In this document: positions 12,998 through 60,687 of the stretch, in pieces
Position numbering within the stretch: position 1 is the first letter of the stretch
How the letters are laid out: each line of letters starts with the position of its first letter
NCBI RefSeq assembly: GCF_016775155.1
Contig: NZ_JAEUGD010000065.1
Location: 1-64,000, forward strand
Source of the DNA: Fulvivirga marina
GTDB lineage: Bacteria > Bacteroidota > Bacteroidia > Cytophagales > Cyclobacteriaceae
Length of the DNA: 64,000 nucleotides
Direction: 5' to 3'
Program-made: the position numbers and the translations under genes
The notes under the pieces: model-generated
Databases searched by the model: none
Told to the model about the DNA's origin: nothing
The model's input: the letters and a program-made list of their open reading frames with translations, nothing else

Positions 12998-13784
12998 TAT
13001 AATCTATATATTTTAGTTGTTTCGGTTTCATTTCTAAAATGTGAAATTACCTCAATATTGTTCATCTTTAGCCCTGCACTTTACAACATATATCAAGATT
13101 GATAGCCACACTTGCTCGGACAGAGTACAAACACTCCCGGATACCAGCCACAATGATATTACACTATCAACCAATGTTATATGACGTGAAGCAACATAAA
13201 AACTGATCTAAATCAGTTGATACTTTAGGTTTACCAAGTCAAGGTGATTTTGTTTATCTAAAGACTGCAGTTATAGAACACTACAACTTATATGTTAGCC
13301 TAATGAAAAGCCCCCGGTAATGATGCTCAAAACATTAGCATCTTCTGATTACATTATAAGAGGCATATAGCGTGTTTAGCTCCAATATTAATGTCTAATT
13401 TTCCGACATGCCGGACACATCCATCTGAAAGTTGCGATATTGAAGGTAAACAGCCGCCCTCTGTAAAAAAGCCTTTAACATGGTTTTAGTTTTTGTTTGC
13501 TCCTTTGCCAATTAACATAACCGAAAATAGTCTCACACATAAGTAATTTTGTATGTACTATTCCTGTATTAATACTTATATTTAACTAAGGTTATCAACG
13601 TAAGAATATCCTTGAATTTATGGCTAAGGTCAAAAGAAAGGTTAACAAACCTGATTAGTTGTCCCCCTACTTTACTCTTACAAAAGACTTTTAATGTTTT
13701 TATACCACGTACTTTATATGTATTATAAGAATATTTTCGTATTTTATTTCCAGTAATGTTATCCACCCCTAAACACTAATAATT
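12998..13784. other. Long intergenic gap (787 bases) between divergent genes
   Basis: No convincing protein gene. It contains the exact palindrome ACTGAT-CTAA-ATCAGT (core 13204-13215) and, 16.5 bases after its centre, the -7-like element TAGGTTTA (13226-13233). A transcript starting here would run ~540 bases before the next gene, leaving room for a leader or small RNA. Nothing else stands out. Confidence 0.4.
13204..13215. promoter_or_regulatory. TGAY-N4-RTCA site in the globin upstream gap
   Basis: Exact match TGATCTAAATCA, with the symmetry extending to ACTGAT/ATCAGT. It is 207 bases from the globin start and 570 from the next plus-strand gene. No -7 element lies at the 29.5-base spacing, so this copy is less certain as an activator site. 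Confidence 0.4.
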
Positions 13785-14333
13785 ATGGCACAATTTGTTT
13801 CGTATGATCCCAATGTTAAAGTAAATGGTCAAACCATTATGTCTGTAGTAAATGCTATGGAATTTGGTCGTGACACCAGACTCAACATTCTCAAAAAACA
13901 TGGACTTGAGAATATCGACATGGATGAATGGTACAACCAGCAAAAATGGCTTGATGCTTTTAAAGAAATATATAACAATATTGGAGAAAACACACTTTAC
14001 ATTATAGGAAAAGCAATTCCCTCAAATGCAAAGTTTCCTCCTGAGATAGACTCTTTGGAAAAAGCACTTAATGCTATAGACGTAGCATACCATATGAACC
14101 ACACCAAGGGAAAGATCGGGAGTTATAAAGTAACGGAATTCGACGAAAAGAAACGTCGCGCCGTAATGATTTGCGACAATCCGTATCCAAGTGATTTTGA
14201 TCGCGGCATCATCACCTCCATGCTGGTTCGCTTTAAGCCCAAAGATTCTACAAAGTATAATGTAACTCTGGATACCTCAAAAGAAACCAGACTTCAGGGC
14301 GGTGATAGCTGCACCTACATTATTAACTGGTAA
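13785..14333 (+). CDS. Conserved protein of unknown function (DUF2378/V4R-like fold possible)
   Basis: A 182-residue soluble protein without signal peptide. The middle (DMDEWYNQQKWLDAFKEIYNN) is helical; the second half alternates strands and ends with ICDNPYPSDFDRGIITSML and LQGGDSCTYIINW, a Cys-rich, Gly-rich ending reminiscent of V4R/TIGR02265-type ligand-binding proteins. I cannot assign it firmly. It lies just upstream of the class II ribonucleotide reductase on the same strand (108-base gap) and within the stretch of redox and stress genes, so a small-molecule sensing role would fit but is speculation. Confidence 0.6.
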   Translation: MAQFVSYDPNVKVNGQTIMSVVNAMEFGRDTRLNILKKHGLENIDMDEWYNQQKWLDAFKEIYNNIGENTLYIIGKAIPSNAKFPPEIDSLEKALNAIDVAYHMNHTKGKIGSYKVTEFDEKKRRAVMICDNPYPSDFDRGIITSMLVRFKPKDSTKYNVTLDTSKETRLQGGDSCTYIINW

Positions 14334-14358
14334 CTTAATAACTTGTTGTACTAACGAA

Positions 14359-14392
14359 TGACAAATATCCCGGTTTTTGCCAATGTATGTCA
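14359..14392 (+). promoter_or_regulatory. Weak TGAY-N4-RTCA-like sites before the class II RNR
   Basis: TGACAAATATCC (14359-14370, one mismatch) lies 72 bases before the start; CAATGTATGTCA (14381-14392, two mismatches) lies 30.5 bases before a TAATTTCC -7-like element at 14417. Neither is strong on its own. Confidence 0.3.
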
Positions 14393-14441
14393 TTTCGAAA
14401 ATGAACAAATGTAATCTAATTTCCTCTTAATAGAGGCTATT

Positions 14442-16202
14442 ATGTTACAGGCAAAAACCAATGGGAAGGTTCTACTTTCAAAAAATGCGTTAAAAGTACT
14501 CGAAAGTCGATATTTAAAGCGCAACACTTTTGGCAAGGTTACCGAAACACCTTTAGAAATGTTTCAGAGGGTGAGCAAGGCTGTTGCTCAGGCAGAGTTA
14601 TGTTGGGGTTCAAATACTGATGTTAAAGTATGGGAAGAAAAATTCTATAGGATGCTAACAGCATTGCATTTCCTTCCCAACTCTCCTACTCTCATGAACG
14701 CAGGCCTGTCTGCCCCTCAGCTAAGTGCCTGTTTTGTGCTTCCAGTGGAAGATCATCTGAAAGATATCTTTTCCTCATTAAAGCTAGCTGCATTAGTTCA
14801 AAAAAGTGGCGGTGGGACTGGCTTTAATTTCAGCCATCTTCGCCCCAAAAATGATCTTTTGATACACACTCAGGGCCAGGCTTCCGGACCAGTTGCTTTC
14901 ATGAAGATATTCAATACTGCCACCACCTACATTAAACAAGGAGGTAAACGCAGAGGTGCCAACATGGGCATACTGAATATTGACCATCCTGATATTGAAG
15001 AGTTTATATGCTGCAAACGCAGGGAAAATGCCTTCACTAACTTCAATATTTCCATTGGGATTTACGACCATTTCATGAATGCCCTGCAGGTAGATGGCGA
15101 CTGGCTACTAATACACCCCAGGACAGGAGCAATTACAAAAGTGGTAAAAGCAAAACACCTATGGAATCTTATTATTGAAAACGCATGGTCGGGAGGAGAT
15201 CCTGGTCTTATATTCCTGGATACCATTAACCAATTTAACCCCACCCCTTCTTTAGGTACCATTGAAGCTACAAATCCATGTGGAGAAGTACCTCTACTAC
15301 CTTATGAAGCTTGTAATTTAGGTTCCATTAATGTTGCCGCTTTTATTAAGCAAAAGAAGTTTGATTGGCCTGCCCTTGAGCAAACCGTAATATTGGCCAC
15401 CCGTTTTCTTGATAATGTAATTGAGGCTAGTGAATTTCCTTCTTTGCGAATAAAAAATATGGTAAAAGGAAACAGAAAGATAGGTCTTGGGGTAATGGGC
15501 TGGGCAGAAGCTTTAAGTAAACTTGAAATACCCTACGACTCAAACCATGCTGTAGAAACAGGCCGTACCCTGATGCGGTTCATTGCAGAAAAAAGTCTGA
15601 CAGCCTCATATATGCTTGCCAGGGAAAGAGGTCCCTTTACCAATTGGCAAAAGCATGCCAGCAACCAGCATATCCCGGTAAGGAATGCCACACGCACCTG
15701 CATCGCCCCTACAGGTACTATATCAATTTTAGCTAATACCTCCTCATCAATCGAACCTTACTTTGCCCTGGCCTACCGTAGGCAACACATTCTGGAAGGC
15801 AGCACACTCTACGAAAGTAACAACACCCTACTGGAATACCTGAAACAAAAGCATATCGATCCGGCAGGTGTGATCTCACATATCGAAAAAACAGGTACAC
15901 TTCGTGGAATGAAAAGTATACCCTCCTCTGTAAAAGCACTTTTCAAGACGGCACCGGAGATACACCCTTCATGGCATCTTAAACATCAGAAAGCTTTTCA
16001 GGAATTTACAGATAATGCGGTATCGAAAACAATAAACCTGCCACAAAAAGCAAAACCATCTGATGTGCACGATATATACTTTTCTGCTTGGGAAATGAAG
16101 CTTAAGGGAATAACCATATTTCGGCTCAATTCCCGTAAAAAGCAGGTGTTAGATTCAGGCATAAAAAGTGACGTAAAAAGCTGTAAAGTCTGTATAGAAT
16201 AG
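14442..16202 (+). CDS. nrdJ: Adenosylcobalamin-dependent (class II) ribonucleotide reductase
   Basis: A 586-residue compact class II enzyme that reduces ribonucleotides without oxygen, using coenzyme B12. Active-site residues are visible: C97 (SACFVLP) and C291 (ACNLGS) as the redox pair, the N278-C280-E282 triad in NPCGE as radical site, and a C-terminal reducing pair C581/C584 (SCKVCIE). The 11-residue distance between C280 and C291 is as expected for the family. Phosphate-binding CIAPTGTIS is also present. Oxygen independence fits the neighbouring low-oxygen and stress genes; such bacteria usually also carry a class I enzyme elsewhere. A weak TGAY-N4-RTCA-like site lies upstream. Confidence 0.93.
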   Translation: MLQAKTNGKVLLSKNALKVLESRYLKRNTFGKVTETPLEMFQRVSKAVAQAELCWGSNTDVKVWEEKFYRMLTALHFLPNSPTLMNAGLSAPQLSACFVLPVEDHLKDIFSSLKLAALVQKSGGGTGFNFSHLRPKNDLLIHTQGQASGPVAFMKIFNTATTYIKQGGKRRGANMGILNIDHPDIEEFICCKRRENAFTNFNISIGIYDHFMNALQVDGDWLLIHPRTGAITKVVKAKHLWNLIIENAWSGGDPGLIFLDTINQFNPTPSLGTIEATNPCGEVPLLPYEACNLGSINVAAFIKQKKFDWPALEQTVILATRFLDNVIEASEFPSLRIKNMVKGNRKIGLGVMGWAEALSKLEIPYDSNHAVETGRTLMRFIAEKSLTASYMLARERGPFTNWQKHASNQHIPVRNATRTCIAPTGTISILANTSSSIEPYFALAYRRQHILEGSTLYESNNTLLEYLKQKHIDPAGVISHIEKTGTLRGMKSIPSSVKALFKTAPEIHPSWHLKHQKAFQEFTDNAVSKTINLPQKAKPSDVHDIYFSAWEMKLKGITIFRLNSRKKQVLDSGIKSDVKSCKVCIE

Positions 16203-17477: not shown

Positions 17478-18860
17478 ATGAAACATCTAATTTATGCATT
17501 CCTGGCAGTAATGATAGCCTTTACATTACAAGCCCAGGATCGAGATCAGGAAAGAGATCGGGATCAGGTTCGTTTGGAGGAACACCTGCTCATACAGGAT
17601 GGTAAAGTTTTACAAATTCAAGACAGAGACCGGGTTCAGTTACGTGAGCAATTGGCATTACAAGACGGATCGATTGTCTATCCGGATGGAACCTACAGAC
17701 ATGCAAACGGTCTAAAACTTCAATTACAAAACGGTCAATGCCTGGATATGAAAGGTAATTTTTATGGTTCATCTGAGCAGTTCCGGCAGCAAATGCAATT
17801 ACGCAATCAGGCAGAGAACCAATTGCATTATACGTTTATTGACGGCAAAGTACAAAGCATCCAAAATCAGGAGCAAAAGCAATTGCAACAGCGCCTGAAC
17901 CTTGCCAATGGCGGTGTACTCCACCCAAATGGCAACTTGCAGCTAAGAGACCAGGAACAAAAACGGCTACGTGATGGCGAATGTGTTGACCCTGAGGGCA
18001 ACCTGTACAATAACCGGGATCAATTTCGCCAGCACATGCAACTGCAGTTGCAAGCGCTTAACCAGGAGCATTTTATGTATCAGGATGGCCAAATGCACCA
18101 AATGCAGAACGGCAAACAGGAGCCGGTTAGGGAGCAATTAAAACTGCAAAGCGGACTGGTTGTAAACCCCAACGGAAGCTACAAGTTGCAAAACCAGGAA
18201 CGTATGCAATTGCAGCAAGGTGAGTACCTCGATGCGGCGGGTAACTCTTATGCATCCCGGGAACAATTTCGACAGCAGGCGCTTGTACGGCTTCAGGCCA
18301 TGAACCAGGCACACTTTGAAGCACATAATGGGCAACTGTATCATGTACAAAACCAAGTACGTGCCCGTGTGAATGAAACATTAAGTTTACCCAATGGCAT
18401 GACTGTTAATCCGGATGCCAGCTACAGACTTCAAAACAGACAGCAGAACAGGCTATCTGATGGGGAATGTTTAGATGGCGAAGGAAACCAATTTCGTTCG
18501 CAGCAACAATACCACCAGCATATGCAAACTCGAATAACGGCTATGTCGGAGCCTCACTTCCAATTCCAAGATGGAAATGTGTACCGCTTTCAAAATCATA
18601 TGCAGTATCAACTTCATGAGCCCTGGAAACTAGGGAATGGCGGTGTTATAAAACCGGATGGAAGTTATACACCCAAAAATGGTAAAAAGGAGATGCTAAA
18701 AAATGGTGAATACCTGGATATGGATGGCAAGCGATACGAAAACCGCGAGAGGTTCAAAGATAGAATGGAGCAACGTGTCCGGGATCGTATGGATCTGAGA
18801 GAGAGGGAAAAAAGGGAGCAAAGAGGAAAAGTAGGATCTGGTAAACGTATAGGTAATTAA
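17478..18860 (+). CDS. Secreted Gln/Arg-rich protein of five 81-residue repeats (DUF6799-like)
   Basis: A 460-residue protein with a signal peptide (MKHLIYAFLAVMIAFTLQAQ). After it come five repeats whose DG/NG anchor codons are at 17598, 17841, 18084, 18327 and 18570, exactly 243 nucleotides (81 codons) apart. Each unit contains DGxxxxxQ, a hydrophobic L-x-L-x-NG, V-x-PDGSY or similar, a GECLDxxGN turn and an EQFRQQMQ helix; DG..L..G.......DG patterns match the DUF6799 type seen in Bacteroidota. The protein is extremely rich in Gln, Arg, Asn and Asp, with a basic C-terminal tail (KREQRGKVGSGKR). A periplasmic or surface role is likely; function unknown. The next gene is an outer-membrane barrel 54 bases downstream. 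Confidence 0.8.
   Translation: MKHLIYAFLAVMIAFTLQAQDRDQERDRDQVRLEEHLLIQDGKVLQIQDRDRVQLREQLALQDGSIVYPDGTYRHANGLKLQLQNGQCLDMKGNFYGSSEQFRQQMQLRNQAENQLHYTFIDGKVQSIQNQEQKQLQQRLNLANGGVLHPNGNLQLRDQEQKRLRDGECVDPEGNLYNNRDQFRQHMQLQLQALNQEHFMYQDGQMHQMQNGKQEPVREQLKLQSGLVVNPNGSYKLQNQERMQLQQGEYLDAAGNSYASREQFRQQALVRLQAMNQAHFEAHNGQLYHVQNQVRARVNETLSLPNGMTVNPDASYRLQNRQQNRLSDGECLDGEGNQFRSQQQYHQHMQTRITAMSEPHFQFQDGNVYRFQNHMQYQLHEPWKLGNGGVIKPDGSYTPKNGKKEMLKNGEYLDMDGKRYENRERFKDRMEQRVRDRMDLREREKREQRGKVGSGKRIGN
17598..18812 (+). repeat. Five tandem 243-bp coding repeats
   Basis: Five in-frame units start at 17598, 17841, 18084, 18327 and 18570 with identical length but diverged sequence. Equal length with sequence drift points to old duplication under structural constraint rather than recent slippage. 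Confidence 0.75.
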
Positions 18861-19824: not shown

Positions 19825-19867
19825 TGATCATAATCATCGACAAGAGATGTAACACTCTTTAAATTTA
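19825..19867 (+). promoter_or_regulatory. Activator site and -7 element before the first BON gene
   Basis: Exact TGATCATAATCA (19825-19836) is centred 29.5 bases before TAAATTTA (19860-19867). The ATG is at 19926. Confidence 0.7.
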
Positions 19868-19925: not shown

Positions 19926-20600
19926 ATGAAAACCAATGACCAACTTCAAAAAGATGTAATGGACGAGATCAGATGGGATCCTCAATTGCGTGATATCCAT
20001 ACAGAGATCGGGGTTTCCGCGAAGAATGGAGTGGTGACCCTTTCTGGTGTGGTGGATACTCTCAACAAAAAGGTAGCAGTAGAAAAAGCTGCGCAGCGCG
20101 TACACGGTGTAAAAGTGATAGCAAGTGATGTAGAAGTCAGGACTGACAACTTCAGCAAAAAAACAGATACCGAAATAGCCGAAGTAGTTAAAAACGCCCT
20201 TCGCTGGAACAGTGATGTTAATGAAGATAAAATAGAAGTAAAAGTTGACAAAGGCTGGGTAACTCTTGATGGCGAAGTAGAGTGGAAGTACCAAAAAACG
20301 ATTGCTTATAACAGCATTGAAGGACTGTTGGGTATAAGAGGTATATCCAATAACATCAAAATTAAGCCAGCAGCCATTGATGTGTCGGATGTTAAAAGTA
20401 AAATAGCGGCGGCGTTCCACCGCAACGCCACCCTTGACTCACACGCTATTCGCTTGGAAGCCGCAGGAAACCGCATTACTTTACGGGGAACGGTTATGTC
20501 ATATGCCGAAAGAGAAGAAGCGGAACGTGTGGCATGGTCTTCACCCGGCGTACTGGAGGTTAATAATCAAATAGAAATTGACACCGAAGTTTACGCATAA
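19926..20600 (+). CDS. Triple BON-domain protein (OsmY-like), copy 1
   Basis: A 224-residue protein of three BON domains at ~5-70, ~75-145 and ~150-222, each with the Gly-containing GxxxVTLxGxV core (NGVVTLSGVVDT, KGWVTLDGEVEW, GNRITLRGTVMS). No signal peptide is present, so it is probably cytoplasmic, unlike periplasmic OsmY. BON proteins are linked to osmotic, phospholipid or general stress. A close paralogue is encoded at 50153-50830 (same start, MKT-[N/D]-[D/E]-Q-x-x-x-D-V-x-[D/E]-E-I-R-W-D-P-Q-L). Its promoter has the exact stress-regulon architecture. Confidence 0.88.
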   Translation: MKTNDQLQKDVMDEIRWDPQLRDIHTEIGVSAKNGVVTLSGVVDTLNKKVAVEKAAQRVHGVKVIASDVEVRTDNFSKKTDTEIAEVVKNALRWNSDVNEDKIEVKVDKGWVTLDGEVEWKYQKTIAYNSIEGLLGIRGISNNIKIKPAAIDVSDVKSKIAAAFHRNATLDSHAIRLEAAGNRITLRGTVMSYAEREEAERVAWSSPGVLEVNNQIEIDTEVYA

Positions 20601-25069: not shown

Positions 25070-25081
25070 TGATAAAAATCA
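25070..25081 (+). promoter_or_regulatory. TGAY-N4-RTCA site before the SDR gene
   Basis: Exact TGATAAAAATCA, 74 bases before the start codon. I see no -7 element at the 29.5-base spacing, so this copy is less certain. Confidence 0.4.
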
Positions 25082-41813: not shown

Positions 41814-41824
41814 CTTATTTTAAA

Positions 41825-42496: not shown

Positions 42497-42513
42497 AGTA
42501 ATAGCTTTGTTGC

Positions 42514-45820: not shown

Positions 45821-45885
45821 CTAAATTATGTAAACCCTGTTTTGAATAGCATGATTTACGTCACATCAGATTATGACATAAATCA
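45821..45885 (-). promoter_or_regulatory. Tandem activator sites and -7 element before the receiver-CRP gene
   Basis: TGATTTACGTCA (45852-45863) is centred 29.5 bases upstream of TAATTTAG (45828-45821, minus strand); a second exact site TGACATAAATCA (45874-45885) is centred 22 bases further upstream, two helical turns. The predicted 5' leader is ~155 bases. Confidence 0.75.
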
Positions 45886-47191: not shown

Positions 47192-47234
47192 TAAAATTAG
47201 TGTATAACCGACTTCATATGCATGACCTGTATCA
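47192..47234 (-). promoter_or_regulatory. Activator site and -7 element before UspA copy 2
   Basis: Exact TGACCTGTATCA (47223-47234) is centred 29.5 bases upstream of TAATTTTA (47199-47192, minus strand), the same -7 sequence as at Hsp20. Confidence 0.78.
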
Positions 47235-47291: not shown

Positions 47292-47303
47292 TGACAATTA
47301 TCA
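47292..47303 (+). promoter_or_regulatory. TGAY-N4-RTCA site before UspA copy 3
   Basis: Exact TGACAATTATCA, 67 bases before the start codon. Two weaker copies follow: a GTCA half-site at 47323-47326 positioned 29.5 bases (by full-site centre) before TAACTTTA (47350-47357), and TGACTTATGTTG (47327-47338). The working arrangement here is unclear. Confidence 0.5.
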
Positions 47304-48429: not shown

Positions 48430-48747
48430 TTATAAAGGTGTTGAATGAGTTTTTTTATTTTTAGAATCTTTCCAACGCTCTATTTGGTGCTTAATACCCT
48501 CTATAGCTTTAACCACTGCTTCTTCAAAAGAAGTGCTTTCTGCTGAAGCAAAAAGGTCATTACCAGGAATGAGGACTTTCAGTTCGCAAACTTTATTATC
48601 TCCATTATCTGAATTATTTAATTTTAGGTAAACTCTACTTTCAATTATTCTGTCACTAAACAAGTCCAGTTTGTCTGTTTTTTCCTGCACAAAATCCAAC
48701 AATTCTTGTCTTGCCTTAAAATTGGGTGTTTCAATAATGGTTTTCAT
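48430..48747 (-). CDS. hpf: Ribosome hibernation promoting factor (short HPF/RaiA)
   Basis: A 105-residue short-form HPF: MKTIIETPNFKARQELLDFVQEKTDKLDLFSDRI at the N-terminus, a central KVCELKVLIPGNDLFASAES strand-turn and SFEEAVVKAIEGIKHQIERWKDSKNKK at the C-terminus. The protein binds the 30S decoding site and stores inactive 70S or 100S ribosomes in slow-growing cells. It is the second gene after the PfkB kinase (44-base gap) and has its own terminator. The C-terminal extension of long HPF is absent. Confidence 0.88.
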   Translation of the reverse strand: MKTIIETPNFKARQELLDFVQEKTDKLDLFSDRIIESRVYLKLNNSDNGDNKVCELKVLIPGNDLFASAESTSFEEAVVKAIEGIKHQIERWKDSKNKKTHSTPL

Positions 48748-48791
48748 CTCTGTTCTATTTAAAATAATGATTTATATTACAACTATTTATG

Positions 48792-49998: not shown

Positions 49999-50063
49999 TA
50001 AAGGTAGGATCTCCCCCTTATGACCAATATGACAGATGTCGCTCAACCGGCTGACTTTAATCA
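49999..50063 (-). promoter_or_regulatory. Tandem activator sites and -7 element before PfkB-HPF
   Basis: TGACAGATGTCG (50030-50041, one mismatch) is centred 29.5 bases upstream of TACCTTTA (50006-49999, minus strand). An exact copy TGACTTTAATCA (50052-50063) is centred 22 bases further upstream, the same tandem spacing as at the receiver-CRP gene. TGACCAATATGA (50021-50032) overlaps. Confidence 0.7.
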
Positions 50064-50152: not shown

Positions 50153-50830
50153 CTAATGTTCAGCATAAATACTGGTGTCAATAACCAGGTTATTTAGTAC
50201 TTCAGTTACTCCTGGCATAGCCCAAGCCACATCCTCGGCATCTTCCCTCTCTGACCATGAGCTTACTTTCCCTTTTAGCGTTACTGTACTTCCGTTAACC
50301 TCAACAGTAATATTTTCAACATCAACGGTAGCGTGTCGATGAAAAGCATTGCTAATCTTCTTTTTAATATATTTGGGCTCAACAATTTCGTTTTCAACCT
50401 TAACTCGGTTAATTATGCCTTTTATGCCGATTATTTTTTCTATTGCTTTTTGGGCAGCTTTACGCTCATAGTCCCACTTCACCGTACCTGAAAGAGATAC
50501 CCAGCCATTATCAACCATAATTTCCAACCGGTCTTCATTGATTGCGCTATGCCAGGTAAGCGCATTTCTAATGGCCTCTCCAAGCTCTGCATCGGTTACT
50601 TTTTCACTTTGCCCTTTTAATTCAATGTCAACAGCTACCACCTTCACCCCACTAACCCTTTGTGCTGCTTTTTCTGTTGCCAGCTTTTGAGCATAGAAAT
50701 CTACCATACCGGAGAGTGTCACAACTCCATCATCTACGCTCACCCCTATATGAGGAGCTATATCCGTGAGTTGAGGGTCCCATCGGATCTCTTCAATAAC
50801 ATCTTGTTTTATTTGTTCATCGGTTTTCAT
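50153..50830 (-). CDS. Triple BON-domain protein, copy 2
   Basis: From the ATG at 50830 the product has 225 residues (MKTDEQIKQDVIEEIRWDPQL), aligning end to end with copy 1 at 19926. An earlier start at 50863 is not supported by that alignment. Three BON domains show GVVTLSGMVDF, GWVSLSGTVKW and STVTLKGKVSS. No signal peptide. It lies 127 bases behind Hsp20 on the same strand with no promoter motif between, so the two may be cotranscribed. Confidence 0.88.
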   Translation of the reverse strand: MKTDEQIKQDVIEEIRWDPQLTDIAPHIGVSVDDGVVTLSGMVDFYAQKLATEKAAQRVSGVKVVAVDIELKGQSEKVTDAELGEAIRNALTWHSAINEDRLEIMVDNGWVSLSGTVKWDYERKAAQKAIEKIIGIKGIINRVKVENEIVEPKYIKKKISNAFHRHATVDVENITVEVNGSTVTLKGKVSSWSEREDAEDVAWAMPGVTEVLNNLVIDTSIYAEH

Positions 50831-50957
50831 TTTACTGAGTAGTTTTGGTGTGTCAAAAAGCAATGAAGCAAAAGAGGATACCTTGCTACCGCTTAGATAT
50901 TACCAAACTTTCTGCGTATCTTCCTCTGCTTCATCAATATGTACACGCACTGGTTGG

Positions 50958-51416
50958 CTACGAAACATCAATTTTATGAGCCGGTTTTACAGGGCTCTCT
51001 TTGAGCTTGGGAATGGTCAAATTAAGAACACCATTTTCGTATTTAGCCTTGATGTTATCCTCCTTGATATTCTCAGGAAGCGTAAATGTTCTACAGAAGG
51101 AATTGAATGAATATTCTTTTCTTGAATAGTCACCCTCTTCCTCTTTCTTCTCTTCTTCTTTCTCTGCCTTGATGCTCAGAATATTATTGTCAATTTCAAT
51201 GATAAAATCCTTACGTTCCAGACCTGGAGCAGCCAGTTCCAATCTGTAATCTTTTGGGGATTCTTTAATATTTACTGTTGGCATATTTACCCCTAATCGT
51301 GTAGGCCATGCATCTGAATCGAAGTCAAAAAATTCGCGACCTAGTAATGAGGTGGGGCTGAAGAAGTCTGTTAGCAATGAAGGAAAACCTTCATTTTTTT
51401 TCACTGTTAAGTTCAT
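50958..51416 (-). CDS. Hsp20 family small heat-shock protein
   Basis: A 152-residue alpha-crystallin-type chaperone. The core is recognisable in VNIKESPKDYRLELAAPGLERKDFIIEIDNNILSIKAEKEEE, then FCRTFTLPENIKEDNIKAKYENGVLNLTIPKLKE, with the usual GVLNLTIPK. The N-terminal arm contains FFSPTSLLGREFFDFD. It prevents aggregation of unfolded proteins. The promoter carries a one-mismatch activator site at the exact regulon spacing. Confidence 0.92.
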   Translation of the reverse strand: MNLTVKKNEGFPSLLTDFFSPTSLLGREFFDFDSDAWPTRLGVNMPTVNIKESPKDYRLELAAPGLERKDFIIEIDNNILSIKAEKEEEKKEEEGDYSRKEYSFNSFCRTFTLPENIKEDNIKAKYENGVLNLTIPKLKESPVKPAHKIDVS

Positions 51417-51440: not shown

Positions 51441-51483
51441 TAAAATTAAGCTAACGGAAGGTTTTCCGCCATGATCTATATCG
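51441..51483 (-). promoter_or_regulatory. Activator site and -7 element before Hsp20
   Basis: TGATCTATATCG (51472-51483, one mismatch) is centred 29.5 bases upstream of TAATTTTA (51448-51441, minus strand). Confidence 0.68.
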
Positions 51484-51539: not shown

Positions 51540-51911
51540 TTATTGCAAGAGGCGCTCAACGGTATCTATTAATTCATTAACGTCAAACGGCTTACATATA
51601 TAGGCACTAGCCCCCATATCCATAGCTTTTTGAATCTCTTTTTTTTCGGCACTTGCGGTAAGATAAATAAAAGGAATATTAGTGGTCGAAGAGTTGCCCT
51701 TAAGGTTTTCCAAAACCTCATAGCCATCAGTCAGAGGCATCATTATATCACATAGAATAATATCTGGCAACTCTTTTTCGGCGGCATGTATCCCTGCTTT
51801 ACCGTCTTCTACATCAATCACTCTATACCCTGCCAGTTCTAAAAGTTCAATAGTATTTTCTCTAATCTCTTTGTTATCTTCAATGACCAATACTGTTTTC
51901 TTCATAGTCAA
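51540..51911 (-). CDS. Stand-alone receiver-domain response regulator
   Basis: A 123-residue CheY-like protein with E11-D12, phosphoacceptor D55 in IILCDIMMPLTDG, TASAEK and YICKPF. There is no output domain. It overlaps the end of the upstream PAS-kinase gene by 32 bases (26 if the second Met is used). Likely a phosphorelay partner, possibly feeding the receiver-CRP factor (inference). Confidence 0.9.
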   Translation of the reverse strand: MTMKKTVLVIEDNKEIRENTIELLELAGYRVIDVEDGKAGIHAAEKELPDIILCDIMMPLTDGYEVLENLKGNSSTTNIPFIYLTASAEKKEIQKAMDMGASAYICKPFDVNELIDTVERLLQ

Positions 51912-53427
51912 TGTTTGGCAATTTAATGGTAAAATTGGTTCCCTTTCCTGATTTACTTTTAAAAGTAATAGTTCCGTTCATTAATTCCACATATCTCTTC
52001 ACGATTGTTAAACCCAGACCTGTACCTTGTACACTTCCTGTATTTGTAGCCCTGAAAAATTTATTGAATAAGTGCACCTGCTCTTCTTCAGGAATACCTA
52101 TACCATGATCCTGAATCATAACCTCCAAGGCCCCATTGTCATTTTGTATGTGAAGATCAATTTCTGTCCCGTCAGATGAATACTTTATTGCATTAGAAAT
52201 CAGGTTTTCTAAAACATGTCTGAACTTGTTAGCATCCAACAGCACCATATCTTCTCCTTTCACGTCCAGGTTTATCCTCTGTTCACCTTTCTTCAAAACC
52301 TGCATATTGGCAATAAGATCTTGAACAAATTCTGAAATATTCAAGGCATTAAATTCCAGTTTCACGTTACCTTGTTCCAGCTTATCTATAGATAAAAAAT
52401 CGTTGAGCACCTCGGTAAGGTTGTTTATAGATGTTCTAATTCTTTGCAAGTGTTTACCAATGCGTTCATCCTTATTCACTCCTCCTACGTACTGATCAAT
52501 CAACGTAACACTGGAAAGTATGATACTCAGTGGTGTACGGAACTCATGAGATGCCATAGACACAAACCTTGACTTCATTTCACTTACAGTCTTTTCACGA
52601 TCAAGGGCATCATTGAGCTCTTGAGTTCTCTGGTGCACTTTCAACTCCAACTCTTCCTGCGTGGTACGCTGGTCATTTACATCAGTACATGACCCTATAT
52701 AACCAGTGAATTCATATTCAGGAGAATAAGCCGGTTTTGCAATTTGCTGTATCCATCGATATTCCCCATCTCCTCTTTTTAACCTAAACTCTGTAATGTA
52801 GGGTTCTCTTTTTTCGTAAGCTAAATCAAAAGCTTCCAGCATTACACTCCTATCCTCCGGGTATACGTTATCCAACCACCCTAAACCTTTTTCATGATTA
52901 ATATCGCAACCAGTAAACTCCAGCCAGGTATGATTGAAATAGGTGTATTCCTTCTTTTCATCAGCTACCCAGATCATCGTAGGAGAGTTTTCTGCAATAC
53001 TTCTAAACCACGCCTCTCTTTCATCCACCATTTTCTGGGCTCTTACCTGAGCAGTGATATCCGTAACAAACGCTACGGCCAGTTTTTCACTATCAACCTT
53101 ATAATGTCCAAGGCTTATTTCGACAGGAAAAATCTCTCCGTTCTTCTTTTGAGCAAATAATTCCAATTCACCTCCCATAGACCGGGATTTAGGGTTCTTA
53201 AAATAATGCTCTCGGTGATCAAAATGTTTTTTTCTATGGTTTCCGGGAATCAGAGTTTCAATAGGTTTTCCCTTTAACTCATCAGGGAAATATCCAAAAA
53301 GCTTTTCAGCACATGGGTTTGACAGTTCAATATAACCCTTTTCATCAACAACCAAAATACTGATTGTTGCACAATCAAACAGCACCTTAAAACCCGCTTC
53401 ACTCTCAAGGAACCTCTGTCCAATCAT
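51880..53427 (-). CDS. Soluble double-PAS sensor histidine kinase
   Basis: A 515-residue kinase without membrane segments. PAS 1 (~10-125; FDCATISILVVDEKGYIELSN) and PAS 2 (~135-255; ENSPTMIWVADEKKEYTYFNHTW, with a PAC segment) are followed by a coiled-coil, the dimerisation helix with H294 in MASHEFRTPLSIIL, and HATPase_c (NLISNAIKYS, DHGIGIPEE, GTGLGLTIV). A cytoplasmic ligand, redox or gas sensor is plausible, but no haem-binding His can be identified. Overlaps its receiver gene. Divergent from the P-ATPase gene. Confidence 0.9.
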   Translation of the reverse strand: MIGQRFLESEAGFKVLFDCATISILVVDEKGYIELSNPCAEKLFGYFPDELKGKPIETLIPGNHRKKHFDHREHYFKNPKSRSMGGELELFAQKKNGEIFPVEISLGHYKVDSEKLAVAFVTDITAQVRAQKMVDEREAWFRSIAENSPTMIWVADEKKEYTYFNHTWLEFTGCDINHEKGLGWLDNVYPEDRSVMLEAFDLAYEKREPYITEFRLKRGDGEYRWIQQIAKPAYSPEYEFTGYIGSCTDVNDQRTTQEELELKVHQRTQELNDALDREKTVSEMKSRFVSMASHEFRTPLSIILSSVTLIDQYVGGVNKDERIGKHLQRIRTSINNLTEVLNDFLSIDKLEQGNVKLEFNALNISEFVQDLIANMQVLKKGEQRINLDVKGEDMVLLDANKFRHVLENLISNAIKYSSDGTEIDLHIQNDNGALEVMIQDHGIGIPEEEQVHLFNKFFRATNTGSVQGTGLGLTIVKRYVELMNGTITFKSKSGKGTNFTIKLPNIDYEENSIGH

Positions 53428-53494: not shown

Positions 53495-53506
53495 TGACAA
53501 TAATCG
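53495..53506. promoter_or_regulatory. TGAY-N4-RTCA-like site between the PAS kinase and P-ATPase genes
   Basis: TGACAATAATCG has one mismatch, the same G end as at Hsp20 and PfkB. It lies 68 bases before the kinase and 102 before the P-ATPase; no -7 element falls at the 29.5-base spacing on either strand. Confidence 0.4.
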
Positions 53507-53607: not shown

Positions 53608-56211
53608 ATGAAATCTGCCTATAATCTAAAACCTGAACAGATATTCTCAGCTATGGGCATAACCCCTGAATCTGGACTCAACGATGAAGGAGTGACGGAA
53701 AGGCGTGAACAATATGGGGTCAATGATATACAGGAAGACAAAGGCCAAACCTGGGCAGACATTATACTGAGACAAGTTAAAAGTCCCATTGTTCTTCTGC
53801 TGTTTTTCGCAGCTGGAGCGTCATTCTTTTTTGGAGAGTGGCTTGATGGTATTGCCATCCTTATTGTGATTCTTATCAATACAGCTGTAGGTTTTTATAT
53901 GGAATACCAAGCTGATCGTTCCATGCAAGCTTTAAGAGACCTAACTTCAATAACTGCCAGAGGAATTCGCAACGGTATACTTATGGAGATAGACTCCAGG
54001 GAGTTGGTGCCAGGGGACATCATTTACCTGGAAGCCGGTGACATGGTACCTGCTGATGCTCGGATTTTCAAACTGGCCCTGCTCCAGATCAACGAATCGA
54101 CTCTTACCGGGGAATCGTTACCCGTGGAAAAAGGTATAGACGCTTTGCCTGAAGGAACTGCAGTTGCCGAACAGGTCAACATGGTTTTTAAAGGCACTTA
54201 TGTAACCAGAGGCAATGCTTCTGCAATAGTTACCGGCACAGGTATGGACACTGAATTGGGAAAAATAGCCAATCTTGTGAGTAAAGCTGAACAAGCCTCC
54301 ACCCCACTAGAAAAGAAACTAGAGGCCTTCAGTAAGCGACTGATCAAAGTCACTCTGTTACTTGTTTTGCTCATATTCATTGCCGGATGGCTCATGGGAC
54401 AGGATTTTTTCGAAATGCTAAGAACCTCTATTGCACTTGCTGTTGCGGCCATACCAGAGGGATTACCCATTGTGGCCACCTTAGGGTTAGCACGTGGCAT
54501 GCTAATAATGGCCCGACACAACGTCATTGTTAAAAAATTGTCTGCAGTTGAGACTCTGGGTAGCACCAATGTCATATGTACGGACAAAACCGGTACGCTT
54601 ACCGAGAACCAAATGAGCGTTCAAAGAGTAAAACCCAAACCATCGGAAGCCGATCCTGCTAATAGTAAAATACTACAAGCCATGGCACTTTGTAATACGG
54701 CTAACATCACAGATGACGGCACTGAAATCGGAGACCCTCTTGAAACTGCCTTGCTTAGGTATGTTAACACATATGGGGTATCTGATAGTATTCGAAGTCG
54801 TTATCCTAAAATAAGTGAAGAGCCATTCTCATCTGAAACCAAAAGGATGATAACCACCCATAAGGATGATGATGGCTCCATAGCCTTTGTCAAAGGGGCC
54901 GTTGAGGAGATACTTCTCATCTCTGACAAAATAGGTACCGAAAACACTGTGCTTACCAGTGAAAACAAAAAGGCTCTACTCAATGAGGCCTCAGAACTAG
55001 CCTCTTCGGGTTATAAAGTAATTGCACTGGCTTTTCAACAAAGCCCTTCTAATAAAATAAGGACTGCCGGATTTTCTTTTTTGGCAATTGTGGCTTTAAT
55101 GGATCCGGCAAGACCAGATGTAGCCCAGGCTATTGATGAATGTAAATCTGCCGGCATCAAAGTAATCATGATCACGGGCGACCACCCACAAACTGCAAAT
55201 GAGATTGCTACACAACTAAATCTCATTGACCGGAAAAATAAAGGCACTTCCACCGGCCTTATGGGTTCCGAAATGAAAGCCTATGAAGAACTTACGGAAG
55301 ATGATAAAACTCTTTGGACCGAAACATCCGTATTTGCGAGGGTAAACCCAGTTCAAAAACTCGACCTTATACAGGTATTGCAAGACCAAAAGTATGTTGT
55401 AGGCATGACCGGTGACGGCGTTAATGATGCTCCAGCTCTCAAAAAAGCTGATATCGGAATAGCTATGGGACAAAGAGGCACACAAGTGGCTCAAGGAGTA
55501 GCTGATATGATACTAAAAGACGACTCTTTCTCATCGATAGTAATGGCTATCAAACAAGGGAGGATTATATTTGAAAACATTCGAAAATTCGTTATTTACC
55601 TATTATCAAGTAATCTAAGTGAAATAATTGCCATAAGCATAGCTTCAGGGTTATCACTCCATTTCCAGCTCCTACCCTTACAGATCCTTTTTATCAACCT
55701 TGTGTCTGATGTATTGCCGGCTCTAGCTCTTGGGGCAACGGCTGCTCCCGGGGATATTATGAAGCAACCTCCACGAAATCAGGATAAACCTATTATCGAC
55801 CCTGGAAGATGGAGAGCCATAATATTTTATGCCATAACCATAAGTGCCTGTAGCTTGGGAGCTGTAGTAAGCTACCATTTTCTTATTTACCCTGCCGGTG
55901 AGTGGAACCCCGAGCTATATAATAACATTCTGTTTTTTACACTCATCAGTGCCCAACTGCTTCATGTTTTTAATATGAATTCATCTAGCAGTAATTTTTT
56001 CAGATCAGAGGTTATGAGGAACAAATATGTATGGTATGCGTTGGCATGCGGGGTTGGCATCATTGGCATTTTGTACCAATTCGAAATCTTCCGTGAAGTA
56101 CTCTCTCTTTACCCCCTAACCGTTGTTGACTGGCTGGTCATTGTAACTTTCAGTCTTTTGAATATGACTATAAACTATCTGGCAAAGTTTTTTAAAATCA
56201 TTGCTCATTAG
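53608..56211 (+). CDS. Type II cation-transporting P-type ATPase (calcium-pump-like)
   Basis: An 867-residue P-type ATPase. Motifs: the actuator TGES, the transmembrane PEGLP (AAIPEGLPIVATLGLARGM), the phosphorylation loop DKTGTLTENQ, KGA in FVKGAVEEI, MITGDHPQTA and GDGVNDAPALKKADIGIAMG. PEGLP and the lack of N-terminal heavy-metal domains place it with Ca2+ or Na+/K+-type (PacL/CtpF-like) pumps. Membrane segments at ~60-100, 250-295 and six near the C-terminus (residues ~665-865). The cation is not certain. CtpF, as I recall, belongs to the mycobacterial dormancy regulon. Confidence 0.92.
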   Translation: MKSAYNLKPEQIFSAMGITPESGLNDEGVTERREQYGVNDIQEDKGQTWADIILRQVKSPIVLLLFFAAGASFFFGEWLDGIAILIVILINTAVGFYMEYQADRSMQALRDLTSITARGIRNGILMEIDSRELVPGDIIYLEAGDMVPADARIFKLALLQINESTLTGESLPVEKGIDALPEGTAVAEQVNMVFKGTYVTRGNASAIVTGTGMDTELGKIANLVSKAEQASTPLEKKLEAFSKRLIKVTLLLVLLIFIAGWLMGQDFFEMLRTSIALAVAAIPEGLPIVATLGLARGMLIMARHNVIVKKLSAVETLGSTNVICTDKTGTLTENQMSVQRVKPKPSEADPANSKILQAMALCNTANITDDGTEIGDPLETALLRYVNTYGVSDSIRSRYPKISEEPFSSETKRMITTHKDDDGSIAFVKGAVEEILLISDKIGTENTVLTSENKKALLNEASELASSGYKVIALAFQQSPSNKIRTAGFSFLAIVALMDPARPDVAQAIDECKSAGIKVIMITGDHPQTANEIATQLNLIDRKNKGTSTGLMGSEMKAYEELTEDDKTLWTETSVFARVNPVQKLDLIQVLQDQKYVVGMTGDGVNDAPALKKADIGIAMGQRGTQVAQGVADMILKDDSFSSIVMAIKQGRIIFENIRKFVIYLLSSNLSEIIAISIASGLSLHFQLLPLQILFINLVSDVLPALALGATAAPGDIMKQPPRNQDKPIIDPGRWRAIIFYAITISACSLGAVVSYHFLIYPAGEWNPELYNNILFFTLISAQLLHVFNMNSSSSNFFRSEVMRNKYVWYALACGVGIIGILYQFEIFREVLSLYPLTVVDWLVIVTFSLLNMTINYLAKFFKIIAH

Positions 56212-56267
56212 CATGAATCCCTGGATATGTAATTATTCATTTTATTGATAACACTCACCCATTCATA

Positions 56268-56310
56268 TGATTTCAGTCATACCTGACAAACAATTGATGT
56301 ACTAGGTTTG
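56268..56310 (+). promoter_or_regulatory. Activator site and -7 element before the OsmC gene
   Basis: Exact TGATTTCAGTCA (56268-56279) is centred 29.5 bases before TAGGTTTG (56303-56310), a perfect TAnnTTTG element. The ATG is 32 bases downstream. Confidence 0.82.
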
Positions 56311-56342: not shown

Positions 56343-56807
56343 ATGGGACCACATTTTTATAATATCAATGTTACCTGGTCTAAAGAAAGAATAGGACTGA
56401 TGAGCTCTCCTGAACTTCATAACATGACCCCGGGAAACGGTAGCATAGAAGTAGCTACACCTCCGCAATTTCCAAAAGGTATTGAAGGCCTATGGTCTCC
56501 CGAACACTTGTTTACAGCAGCCGTAAGCAGCTGTTTCATGACTACCTTCCTGGCAATAGCAGAAAACTTTAAACTTAACTTCAAGGGGTTTTCATGTGAC
56601 TCAAGTGGAAAACTGGAAATGGTTGATGGAAAACTGTACATGACCGAGGTACATGTAAAACCTGTAGTAACATTATATGATGATGAAGATCGCGAGCGTG
56701 CTTTAAAAATACTGAACAAAACAGAGCGTTCTTGCCTGATCTCTAACTCTATTACAGCAAAAGTTATTATGGAGCCCTTGATACAAACAGTATTGTGCAA
56801 GGCCTGA
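56343..56807 (+). CDS. OsmC/Ohr family peroxidase-like protein
   Basis: A 154-residue protein with both catalytic cysteines of the OsmC/Ohr fold: AAVSSCFMTTFLAIAEN and ERSCLISNSITAKV. Preceding the first is GLWSPEHLFTAAV, the family's P-E-x-L motif. It would reduce organic hydroperoxides using a thiol donor. It is a single-gene unit with a strong regulon promoter and its own terminator. Confidence 0.9.
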   Translation: MGPHFYNINVTWSKERIGLMSSPELHNMTPGNGSIEVATPPQFPKGIEGLWSPEHLFTAAVSSCFMTTFLAIAENFKLNFKGFSCDSSGKLEMVDGKLYMTEVHVKPVVTLYDDEDRERALKILNKTERSCLISNSITAKVIMEPLIQTVLCKA

Positions 56808-58156: not shown

Positions 58157-60559
58157 TTAAAAGCTTAAGCTAGAGTCCATCTTTGGCTTAGACCTTTTTT
58201 CGGCTTCAGCAATATTTTCAATACCTCTAATAATTGCATCAGGATTAAAGGATATAGAATCTATATTATTTTCGACCAGAAAACGAGCAAATTCAGGGTA
58301 ATCGCTTGGTGCCTGCCCACATAGGCCAACCTTCACTCCTTTGGTATGTGCCACCTTAATAAGGTGCTTGATAAGATAAAGAACAGCTTCATTTTTCTCA
58401 TTAAACAGACTACTTACTATAGCCGAATCTCGGTCCAGGCCGAGAGTAAGTTGTGTCAGGTCATTAGAGCCAATAGAGAAGCCATCAAATATGTCGGCAA
58501 ACTTATCCGCGAGTAGAATATTACTGGGTATTTCAGCCATTACATACACCTCAAGTCCATGCTGCTTCCTCTTTAGGCCAAACTGTGCCATAGTATCCAA
58601 TACTTTTTGGCCCTCCTCAACCGTACGGCAGAAAGGTATCATCACTTTAATATTGTCCAGCATCATTTCTTCTCTGGCTCTTTTAATAGCTGCACATTCC
58701 AGTCCAAAGCCTTCAGCATAACGTTCATTATAATACCTACTGGCACCCCTGAAACCAAGCATAGGGTTTTCCTCTTCTGGCTCGAAAAACTTGCCTCCCA
58801 ATAACTTGGCATACTCATTGGTTTTAAAATCACTCATCCTTACTATAACCTCCCTCGGGTAATAGGCTGCCGCCACCAAACCAACAGACTCGGCAAGATT
58901 ATCAATGAAAAATTTTTTCTTATCAGCGTAATGCCTTGTAAGAGCAGCTATTTGCTTTTTCTCATTATCATTTGGCAGCTCATCATATTTCACAAGCGCC
59001 ATCGGATGTACCTGAAGGCTATTACTGATGGCAAACTCCATCCGCATCAACCCTACACCCTTGTTAGGATATGTGGCCAGTAAAAGCGCCTTACCAGGGT
59101 CAGCTAAAATGAACATTGGAGCTGTCTTAGTATTGGCTACTGCTCCGAGCTCGACCTCCTTTTCCTCCCATTTCAGTTTCCCATCATAAACCAACCCTTC
59201 ATCTCCGCCTACACATGATATGGTAACAATCTGACCATCAATTAACTGCTCCGTCGCAGAAAGCGTACCTACTATAGCCGGAATTCCCAACTCACGGGCT
59301 ACAATGGAAGCATGGCTTGTTCTCCCCCCTTTATTGGTAATAATACTGACAGCTTTCTTCAGCAGTGCATTCCAATCAGGGTTTGTTATATCGGCAACGA
59401 TAATATCCCCAGCCTTAACTTTTGCTCCATCGGCCAGGGACTTCACAATCCTCACCTTACCGCTTACAATTGCCCTTCCCACGGCTTTCCCCCTCAAAAG
59501 AGGCTCTTTTTTAGTGGATATTTTGTAATCCTTGAGTGTGATATTCCTGCGATGAGAGTGTACGGTTTCAGGGCGTGCCTGTAGTATGTAAATCTGATCC
59601 GTTAGCCCATCTTTAGCCCATTCGATATCCATTGGGCTTCGGTAGTGTTTTTCTATAGCCAATGACCACTGCCCCAACAAGTTGATCTCCTCATCTGAAA
59701 GCACAAATTGGTCTCTGAGGGTTACAGGTGTTTCCTTCCACTTAGTTTCATGAGCTTCACTTTTACCATACACAACCATCTGCTGCTTAGAACCCATACT
59801 ACGATAAACAATAGGGTGTCCCTGATTTTCTAACGCAGGCTTGAACAGGTAAAATTCATCCGTATTGACTGCCCCCTGAACCACACTCTCACCTAGCCCC
59901 CAAGCTCCTGTAATGTATATAAGGTTCTCATTTCCATTCTCAGGTTCAATGGTGAAGATTACCCCGGCACTACCCTTGTCTGATCTTACCATCTGTTGAA
60001 CCCCAACGGAAAGTCCAACCTGCATATCAGCAAAACCATTGTCACTTCTGTATTTGATAGCTCTGTCATTAAACAGGGATATATAGCACTTTTTAGCTGC
60101 CTCTAGTACATGTTTTACTCCTGAAACATTCAAAAAAGAGTCATGCTGACCAGCAAAACTGGCTGTTGGTAAATCTTCGGCCGTAGCACTGCTTCTGATG
60201 GCAAATGTTGCCTTACCTTTTTCTTCAATAAAGCCTTGGTATGCTTCATGAATAGCATGTGCCACATCACTCGGCCAATCGGCTTTTGAAATGAGCTTTC
60301 GACATTCCTTACCTACTTCAGCAAGGTTTCCTAAGGTTTTTCGATCAAGTCTATTAAGAGTCTTCTGCAGTGGAACTTCAAGTGAGTTTTTAACAATAAA
60401 TGACCTGTAAGCACCTACAGTAATAGCAAAACCATCGGGAACCATGACCCCTAATGGGGATAAGGTACTGATCAGTTCACCTAACGACGCATTTTTACCT
60501 CCAACCTCCGGTATATCATTCATTGTTAGAAAGCTAAAAGGCTGAACAAAGTTTTTCAT
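58157..60559 (-). CDS. ppsA: Phosphoenolpyruvate synthase
   Basis: An 800-residue enzyme converting pyruvate and ATP to PEP, AMP and phosphate. Nucleotide-binding domain ~1-340 (VGGKNASLGELIS, FAIRSSATAEDLPTASFAGQHDSFLN); central swivelling domain with the phospho-His in GGRTSHASIVARELGIPAIVG (~420-440); C-terminal PEP/pyruvate TIM-barrel (MRMEFAIS, MIPFCRTVEE, GLCGQAPSDYPEFARFL). It lies behind an ideal regulon promoter. PEP synthase in a stress regulon suggests maintaining PEP and gluconeogenesis in non-growing cells (inference). Confidence 0.95.
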   Translation of the reverse strand: MKNFVQPFSFLTMNDIPEVGGKNASLGELISTLSPLGVMVPDGFAITVGAYRSFIVKNSLEVPLQKTLNRLDRKTLGNLAEVGKECRKLISKADWPSDVAHAIHEAYQGFIEEKGKATFAIRSSATAEDLPTASFAGQHDSFLNVSGVKHVLEAAKKCYISLFNDRAIKYRSDNGFADMQVGLSVGVQQMVRSDKGSAGVIFTIEPENGNENLIYITGAWGLGESVVQGAVNTDEFYLFKPALENQGHPIVYRSMGSKQQMVVYGKSEAHETKWKETPVTLRDQFVLSDEEINLLGQWSLAIEKHYRSPMDIEWAKDGLTDQIYILQARPETVHSHRRNITLKDYKISTKKEPLLRGKAVGRAIVSGKVRIVKSLADGAKVKAGDIIVADITNPDWNALLKKAVSIITNKGGRTSHASIVARELGIPAIVGTLSATEQLIDGQIVTISCVGGDEGLVYDGKLKWEEKEVELGAVANTKTAPMFILADPGKALLLATYPNKGVGLMRMEFAISNSLQVHPMALVKYDELPNDNEKKQIAALTRHYADKKKFFIDNLAESVGLVAAAYYPREVIVRMSDFKTNEYAKLLGGKFFEPEEENPMLGFRGASRYYNERYAEGFGLECAAIKRAREEMMLDNIKVMIPFCRTVEEGQKVLDTMAQFGLKRKQHGLEVYVMAEIPSNILLADKFADIFDGFSIGSNDLTQLTLGLDRDSAIVSSLFNEKNEAVLYLIKHLIKVAHTKGVKVGLCGQAPSDYPEFARFLVENNIDSISFNPDAIIRGIENIAEAEKRSKPKMDSSLSF

Positions 60560-60590
60560 CTTTATTATAATTTAACCCTTTTAAGGTAAA

Positions 60591-60633
60591 CAAACCTAAC
60601 CTAACATATCATAATCTCCGATGACCAAGGTCA
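60591..60633 (-). promoter_or_regulatory. Activator site and -7 element before PEP synthase
   Basis: Exact TGACCAAGGTCA (60622-60633) is centred 29.5 bases upstream of TAGGTTTG (60598-60591, minus strand), identical in sequence and spacing to the OsmC promoter. Confidence 0.85.
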
Positions 60634-60643
60634 AGCTAAAGGG

Positions 60644-60687
60644 TGATTAAGATCATTTCAAGAAAGTTACATGCATGCCTACCTTAG
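60644..60687 (+). promoter_or_regulatory. Activator site and -7 element before helical-family member 3
   Basis: Exact TGATTAAGATCA (60644-60655) is centred 30.5 bases before TACCTTAG (60680-60687) and 22 bases from the PEP synthase site on the other side. Start codon at 60714. Confidence 0.68.

Follow-up and report, generated by a model that had tools for sequence, protein, structure and literature searches.

Does a palindrome that recurs between the genes of a bacterial DNA stretch mark a regulon, and which regulator would read it? The stretch considered here (the window) comprises 64,000 nucleotides, G000:C62:1-64000, of the 6.78 Mb genome of Fulvivirga marina. An earlier note on this DNA had listed 15 intergenic copies of TGAY-N4-RTCA and had ascribed them to an undescribed stress or dormancy regulon under a protein encoded at 44598-45656, in which a receiver is joined to a Crp/Fnr-type output. 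Our analysis, which draws on sequence comparison throughout, indicates that these palindromes are likely to be the operators of a low-oxygen and nitric oxide (NO) survival regulon of Bacteroidota, activated by this two-component FNR fusion. No description of the motif or of the fusion's regulon was found in the open-access literature searched.

The palindrome in the window, its genome and related loci

All 15 copies listed earlier are present at their coordinates, as are four one-mismatch copies at 16232, 50030, 51472 and 53495, although one-mismatch sites are common in the window (35 intergenic, 106 coding) and a single one therefore means little. The listed copies are indeed intergenic except for that at 42545, which overlaps the start of a called PRTase open reading frame (ORF), and one intergenic copy, at 44449, had been missed. 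In total the window holds 25 exact copies, compared with 4.68 +/- 2.26 (maximum 10) in 100 dinucleotide shuffles; the expectation of one copy per ~16 kilobases (kb) given before is correct for equal base use, and the shuffles have a copy every 13.7 kb or so. Greedy ORF calling puts 15 of the 25 copies in the 15.4% of the window that is intergenic (binomial p 4e-7), giving densities of 1.52/kb in intergenic and 0.18/kb in coding DNA. These intergenic copies are unevenly spread, with 3 in the 6.0 kb of intergenic DNA between 1 and 35 kb and 12 in the 3.9 kb (3.10/kb) between 35 and 64 kb.

For comparison we used 13 stretches of 20 kb (260 kb) elsewhere in the same genome, taken at round coordinates but chosen after a partial site list (contigs C1, C6 and C8) had been seen, and hence not blind. 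These contained 2 copies in 21.1 kb of intergenic DNA (0.09/kb) and 24 in 238.9 kb of coding DNA (0.10/kb). The intergenic density rose to 1.63 and 1.04/kb in the 20-kb neighbourhoods of the genome's second and third fusion genes, and to 1.17/kb in five stretches that were picked for holding composite sites (defined below). Away from such clusters, intergenic density equals coding density. A second motif-rich cluster of this genome, G000:C49:118001-138000 (L126), encodes NorB, a ScdA/hemerythrin protein, cytochrome c, PPK2, an eCIS-core protein and a stand-alone Crp/Fnr protein.

Related loci were collected by searching genome contigs with the fusion protein. At least 589 stretches matched, 575 of which encode a relative, and the best 80 loci (L001-L080) were kept; going by their labels, all come from Bacteroidota apart from L020 (Thalassovita) and L014 (an uncultured bacterium), and the nearest relative, from Fulvivirga kasyanovii, is 91% identical. 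We then scored every palindromic 4-mer with spacers of 0-16 in 73 of these loci (L008-L080). This unbiased dyad scan placed the same motif first: TGAT-N4, TGAC-N4, ATGA-N6 and GTGA-N6 ranked first to fourth in intergenic DNA, with counts of 90, 45, 61 and 18 against medians of 6, 2, 5 and 1 at other spacers. Coding DNA showed no excess for TGAT, ATGA or GTGA and a twofold excess for TGAC. Conservation upstream of genes in relatives, which the earlier note had put forward as a way to check its proposal, is borne out; the idea of a shared regulon with a Crp/Fnr-type core is also supported. Across all 80 loci, 275 intergenic and 131 coding sites had full flanks, and the base at position -1 of the intergenic half-sites was A in 49%, G in 19%, T in 16% and C in 15%.

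Spacing of sites, partners and promoter boxes

Spacing was scored in both directions for 290 intergenic sites from the 80 loci and the window. The sequence TAnnTTTG starts 29 base pairs (bp) from the site centre in 40 cases and 51 bp from it in 28, with at most 4 cases at any other distance; 51 bp is 29 plus 22. Consistent with this sum, 120 of the 290 sites, in 42 of the 81 sequences, have a partner with at most one mismatch 22 bp away. Counted by distance over the range 13-59, such tandem partners number 113 at 22 bp, 32 at 23 bp and 0-5 at each other distance. TTTG/TAnnTTTG is reported as the -33/-7 consensus of Bacteroides sigma-A (PMC10620806). Combined with this consensus, the 29-bp spacing would place the site centre near -41, much as in class II activation by Fnr, where sites are centred near -41.5, and we infer a position about 41 bp before the transcription start.

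We defined composites as the palindrome plus the -7 box TAnnTTTG at the real spacing (N22-24), with N17-19 as a shifted-spacing control, and searched two genome sets: 296 genomes of the phylum and 80 of the class, 12 genomes being common to both. The F. marina genome contains 9 composites and 8 tandems, compared with none of either in reversed controls; with N23 and one mismatch allowed, the composites number 37 against 7. The 80 class genomes hold 442 composites at the real spacing and 60 at the shifted one, the 73 same-class genomes of the phylum set hold 565 against 42 in reversed controls, and the reversed tandem pattern does not occur in any of the 80 class or 296 phylum genomes. A compositional accident of AT-rich intergenic DNA can practically be dismissed as the source of this enrichment: the excess over the reversed pattern in the whole 6.78 Mb genome is only twofold (735 versus 379), but shuffles, own-genome stretches, reversed-pattern and shifted-spacing controls reject such an artefact, as do the fixed distances from sites to -7 boxes and to tandem partners and the recurrence in 80 loci.

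The fusion regulator and its possible competitors

The protein encoded at 44598-45656 (reverse strand) has 352 amino acids and consists of a receiver, a cNMP-type barrel and a Crp-type helix-turn-helix (HTH; Pfam Response_reg, cNMP_binding and HTH_Crp_2). We compared 78 fusions, namely that of the window and those of the 77 loci with a detectable fusion (all but L034, L048 and L080). The phosphorylatable Asp, acidic pocket, Thr/Ser and Lys of two-component receivers are all present, with E9, D53 and K105 in 78/78, D10 in 77/78 and T83 in 77/78 (one Ser). The HTH recognition residues E317 and R321 occur in all 78, and with its barrel and these Glu/Arg residues the fusion fits the Crp/Fnr superfamily. 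Among the NCBIfam matches listed for it (25 of 95 models), none reached the cut-off; the best matches of the C-terminal half were FixK and Fnr models, below cut-off. The 4Fe-4S cysteine cluster of oxygen-labile FNR is absent, since C52, in the receiver, is the sole cysteine in the 352 residues. The cAMP-contacting Arg of CRP is likewise lacking: residue 222 of the barrel, which we take to correspond to R82 of CRP, is Glu in 59 and Asp in 10 of the 78 fusions. Control by cAMP or by an Fe-S cluster was rejected from these residues.

A histidine kinase is encoded within 600 bp of 67 of the 78 fusions, always on the same strand; it lies upstream of the fusion gene in 65 and overlaps it in 30, whereas in the window and in L001 it follows the regulator. 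The likely partner in the window is a CHASE3-PAS histidine kinase (42593-44326, reverse strand; Pfam). PDB searches with two of the kinases gave matches mainly through the kinase core, and the sensor parts differ between loci. The idea that every partner kinase has a FixL-type heme PAS is not supported. In two Pontibacter loci (L011:8763-9995 and L008:8763-9995) the kinase preceding the fusion seems to begin with a receiver, as seen from PDB matches for L011 and from sequence for L008, which would suggest a phosphorelay.

The presence of tandem sites tracks the fusion gene. Called at E<=1e-60, the gene occurs in 43 of the 296 phylum genomes, all of the window's class, and in 41 of the 80 class genomes. 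Tandems are present in 34/41 class genomes with the fusion and 10/39 without it. The corresponding figures in the phylum set are 29/43 and 7/30 within the same class, or 22/253 without the fusion over all 296 genomes, and after the 12 shared genomes are dropped the fractions are 28/35 and 9/33. Genome size or composition is unlikely to cause this difference, since the shifted-spacing control is alike in genomes with and without the fusion (means 0.80 and 0.69). The sites also lie close to the gene. In the 19 fusion-bearing genomes with full tandem lists (of 29 that have tandems), 20 of 61 tandems fall within 20 kb of it compared with 0.64 expected, and 21 of 99 composites do so compared with 1.06 expected (19 genomes). 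One tandem pair precedes the fusion gene of the window itself (45852-45863 and 45874-45885, 22 bp apart, with the -7-like box TAATTTAG; 45821-45885, reverse strand), 207 bp before its start. The earlier suggestion that the receiver-CRP protein is the likely regulator is strengthened by these results.

The flanking base of the sites appears to follow the fusion's own helix as well: T stands at -1 in 22% of the 328 half-sites from 42 loci with Lys as helix residue 316 and in 5% of the 202 half-sites from 21 loci with Thr there, a comparison that related loci weaken and that is suggestive only. A link of the same kind, between helix positions 180/181 and operator bases, is described by Rodionov and colleagues (PMC1274295).

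An alternative is that stand-alone FNR-type regulators, encoded in this genome for example at C49:120882 and C37:168550, are the chief users of the sites, and that the fusion controls few of these sites or shares them. Several observations weigh against the fusion as principal regulator, some of them in favor of this alternative. The genome comparisons of tandems and fusion ignore kinship. In the same-class genomes of the phylum set, composites are as numerous without the fusion as with it (medians 7 versus 6, p 0.51), although the means in the 80 class genomes are 3.05 without and 7.88 with it; 27 of the 39 class genomes lacking the fusion at the cut-off also contain composites. A promoter of site plus -7 box exclusive to fusion-bearing genomes was therefore rejected, the second sample differing, and the motif is not exclusive to the fusion regulator. 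The GTATE[ST]xxR helix of the fusion recurs in 15 of 27 distinct stand-alone Crp/Fnr proteins of the loci (one of the 15 being a fragment at a contig end), and stand-alone homologues are 27-39% identical to the fusion's CRP half. All three tandems of genome G273, which has no fusion at the cut-off, lie within 4 kb of two stand-alone FNR genes, of the 15 genomes in family f7 that have the fusion, 11 lack an exact tandem, and own-genome sites cluster near the stand-alone Crp gene on C49. Autoregulation, finally, is only moderately enriched: an exact site stands at 39 of 72 regulator operon heads (6 further regulator loci had no operon head within the stretch), but so does one at 128 of the 382 other heads in these loci.

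On the other side stand the association of tandems with the fusion in both genome sets, their roughly 30-fold excess over expectation within 20 kb of it, the crowding of 12 of the 15 intergenic copies into the part of the window that holds the fusion gene, the finding of no stand-alone Crp/Fnr among the 60 called ORFs of the window, and the flanking base that varies with the fusion's own helix. We therefore consider it improbable that stand-alone regulators are the main users of these sites, although such homologues are likely to act at these single sites as well and, in some cases, at tandems. Genome G271, a member of the phylum set without the fusion at the cut-off, has 32 composites, the highest count in that scan, together with 4 tandems and two adjacent stand-alone Crp/Fnr genes; G351 has 34 composites in the class-set scan.

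Together, these observations favor a scheme in which the fusion acts as a response regulator with an FNR/FixK-type DNA-binding output. Its receiver Asp53 would be phosphorylated by a histidine kinase whose gene is usually adjacent. The active dimer would then bind RTGAY-N4-RTCAY, centred roughly 41 bp ahead of the transcription start, and work as a class II activator of the sigma-A polymerase, which recognizes TAnnTTTG. Many promoters may hold a second dimer two helical turns (22-23 bp) upstream of the first. The regulator is predicted to activate its own gene and those for kinases, Usp, Hsp20, HPF and the sugar kinase, PEP synthase and OsmC, with cbb3 oxidase, NO reductase, globins and hemA as probable targets in other parts of the genome. 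The sites, their spacing and conservation, their co-occurrence with the fusion gene and their proximity to it are read from sequence; phosphorylation, activation, the start-site position and the oxygen or NO signal are inferred. A more ambitious form of the proposal, which we advance only tentatively, is that phosphorylation lets two dimers stack 22-23 bp apart, creating a kinase-gated cooperative switch for a programme of microaerobic respiration and dormancy, a single-protein counterpart to DosR and FixLJK that would be widespread in this class of Bacteroidota.

Target genes, the signal and comparison with known systems

To characterize the targets, Pfam families were assigned to 136 genes drawn at random from the 270 of the 80 loci that have a site (fusions included), and to 132 drawn likewise from 442 siteless genes preceded by 80 bp or more of intergenic DNA. 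The site-bearing genes included HisKA 19, Usp 13, GlutR (hemA) 7, COX1 6, HSP20 6, FixO 4, CBS 4, PEP-synthase domain 3, FixG 3 and YtxH 3. The siteless genes included HisKA 8, Usp 2, CBS 4, HTH_Crp_2 4, Cytochrome_CBB3 3 and FixP_N 2; hemA, HSP20, FixO and FixG were not among the 25 families listed for them. We also took 33 proteins of the window and its genome and asked how often their homologues in relatives have an upstream site, against a base rate of 323/1369 (24%). Three pass correction for 33 tests, namely hemA (15/16, p 4e-9), Hsp20 (13/17) and Usp (31-32/65-66). BON (5/6), P-ATPase (7/13), PEP synthase (4/7) and ccoNO (6/13, p 0.06) fail it, and PRTase, HPF, ADH, AAA_33 and SDR are among the proteins without support or with too few homologues.

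Beyond the window, sites in the same genome precede ccoNO, an acetyl-CoA hydrolase family gene, Hsp20, HemA and a bacterial-like globin, as well as NorB, the ScdA/hemerythrin protein, cytochrome c and PPK2. Tandems occur eight times in the genome, before the genes for the fusion, PEP synthase, cytochrome c, a LolA-like protein encoded next to the second fusion, MlaE, an FtsH-like AAA protease, a glycogen debranching enzyme and an unnamed 305-amino-acid protein, and from these targets the regulon appears broader than respiration.

Within the window, predicted targets include PEP synthase and an OsmC family protein. A tandem at 60622 and 60644 with the -7 box TAGGTTTG (60591-60655, reverse strand) precedes PEP synthase (58157-60559, reverse; Pfam, and NCBIfam TIGR01418 above cut-off) and also faces an ORF at 60675. 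The same box, TAGGTTTG, follows an exact site at 56268 and its one-mismatch distal partner at 56246 (56246-56310, forward) before the OsmC gene (56343-56807, forward). A further pair, 50030 (one mismatch) and 50052 (exact), 22 bp apart with the -7-like box TACCTTTA (50030-50063, reverse), would serve a sugar kinase (48792-49970) and a short HPF/S30AE protein (48430-48747), both predicted targets on the reverse strand (48430-49970); the kinase, called PfkB before, is Khk/PfkB-like and fits the Pfam ketohexokinase family best.

Sites also precede several other genes on the reverse strand. The site at 42545 has the -7-like box TAGCTTTA (42514-42556) and stands before a PRTase-Usp pair of predicted targets (41825-42550 and 40914-41813; together 40914-42550); since this box sits inside the called ORF, the true PRTase start is probably further in. 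The site at 47223 with the -7-like TAATTTTA (47192-47234) precedes a Usp gene (46330-47172), likewise a predicted target, and a one-mismatch site (51472-51483), again with TAATTTTA, precedes Hsp20 (50958-51416), a probable target with a BON-domain protein (50153-50863) downstream. Two exact sites, 44386 and 44449 (44386-44460), lie before the histidine kinase, their -7 boxes having two mismatches. Another site (13204-13215), with the -7-like TAACATTG, is 218 bp before a globin (12575-12997), and one at 38075-38086 precedes a short ORF (37764-38018, labelled YtxH in the earlier note) and ADH (36708-37754). On the forward strand, a site with the -7-like TAAATTTA (19825-19867) precedes a BON protein (19926-20600), and one with a poor -7 box of two mismatches (47292-47303) precedes a possible Usp target (47370-48182). 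A site with poor -7 boxes (40213-40224) lies between divergent ORFs (39652-40098 and 40323-40796). Two members are doubtful: a one-mismatch copy (53495-53506) between a PAS kinase (51880-53427) and a P-type ATPase (53608-56211), and the palindrome at 25070-25081 (forward), an exact copy as listed, which lies 85 bp before an SDR gene and has no acceptable -7 box. Elsewhere in the window, 17478-18860 encodes a protein with five DUF6799 stretches, and at 38139-39639 an APH-like gene adjoins an AAA_33 P-loop gene, a pair that presumably recalls the mycobacterial Rv2004c of the DosR regulon.

The description of this set as a stress or dormancy regulon proves too vague: the conserved targets hemA and cbb3 oxidase, together with NorB, globins and the ScdA-like protein in this genome, indicate low oxygen or NO before other stresses. 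Regulator and sites might be as proposed and yet answer to energy, redox or starvation stress. This would accord with the many general stress genes among the targets (Usp, Hsp20, HPF and OsmC), with the varied inputs of the adjacent kinases (CHASE3-PAS in the window, an N-terminal receiver in L011) and with tandem targets that have no oxygen link (MlaE, the FtsH-like protease, the LolA-like protein and the glycogen debranching enzyme), the last two of which also count against the preferred reading. But hemA, cbb3 oxidase, FixG, NorB and globins lie under the motif, and a B12-dependent (NrdJ) ribonucleotide reductase gene (14442-16202; above the NCBIfam cut-off), of a class that works without oxygen, adjoins the globin gene. 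We regard such an alternative signal as unlikely, though it is the strongest of the competing explanations, and keep low oxygen or NO as the preferred one.

Among known Crp/Fnr proteins without Fe-S cysteines are HcpR, DNR and NnrR, in which we know of no receiver. Their palindromes are of the same family according to PMC1274295, where the HcpR2 motif is given as GTAAC-N4-GTTAC and the predicted regulon in most Bacteroides as hcp only. MalR and Crp-Pg, Crp-like regulators of Bacteroidota, share superfamily and phylum with the fusion and are described as regulators of carbon use or virulence factors; the word 'receiver' is absent from the text of both papers (PMC8510549, PMC12040651).

The FnrN/FixK regulon of Alphaproteobacteria likewise has a Crp/Fnr-type factor and a palindrome of the TTGA-N6-TCAA class. 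FixLJ signals through a FixJ to FixK cascade, whereas here receiver and FixK-like output reside in one protein. The sites differ too, with A or G mostly at -1 (T in 16% of intergenic half-sites), 22-23 bp tandems and the Bacteroidota -7 box. FnrN/FixK targets named in PMC4999443 and PMC11784457 are cco (cbb3), hemA and an Hsp20. Both cbb3 oxidase and hemA stand under the present motif, in relatives and in this genome.

The DosR dormancy regulon of mycobacteria is also under two-component control. DosR has a LuxR-type output domain and a different operator; the output of the fusion is HTH_Crp_2. If our proposal is correct, a kinase acting directly on an FNR-type factor would be a third wiring for hypoxia, beside the LuxR-type factor and the FixJ to FixK cascade. 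The same layout of regulator and motif recurs in many Bacteroidota, and the promoter grammar (palindrome, 22-23 bp tandem and 29 bp to the -7 box) would then predict low-oxygen regulons in many genomes of this large environmental phylum. By analogy, the regulon is best read as FixK-like with DosR-like contents: hspX, pfkB, ctpF and a Usp-like protein, placed in the DosR regulon by PMC4082495 and PMC8044303, resemble the Hsp20, the Khk/PfkB-like kinase, the P-type ATPase (a doubtful member) and the Usp proteins found here. This partial convergence with the mycobacterial set (Usp, Hsp20 and PfkB-like kinase) suggests a recurring toolkit for surviving the loss of oxygen.

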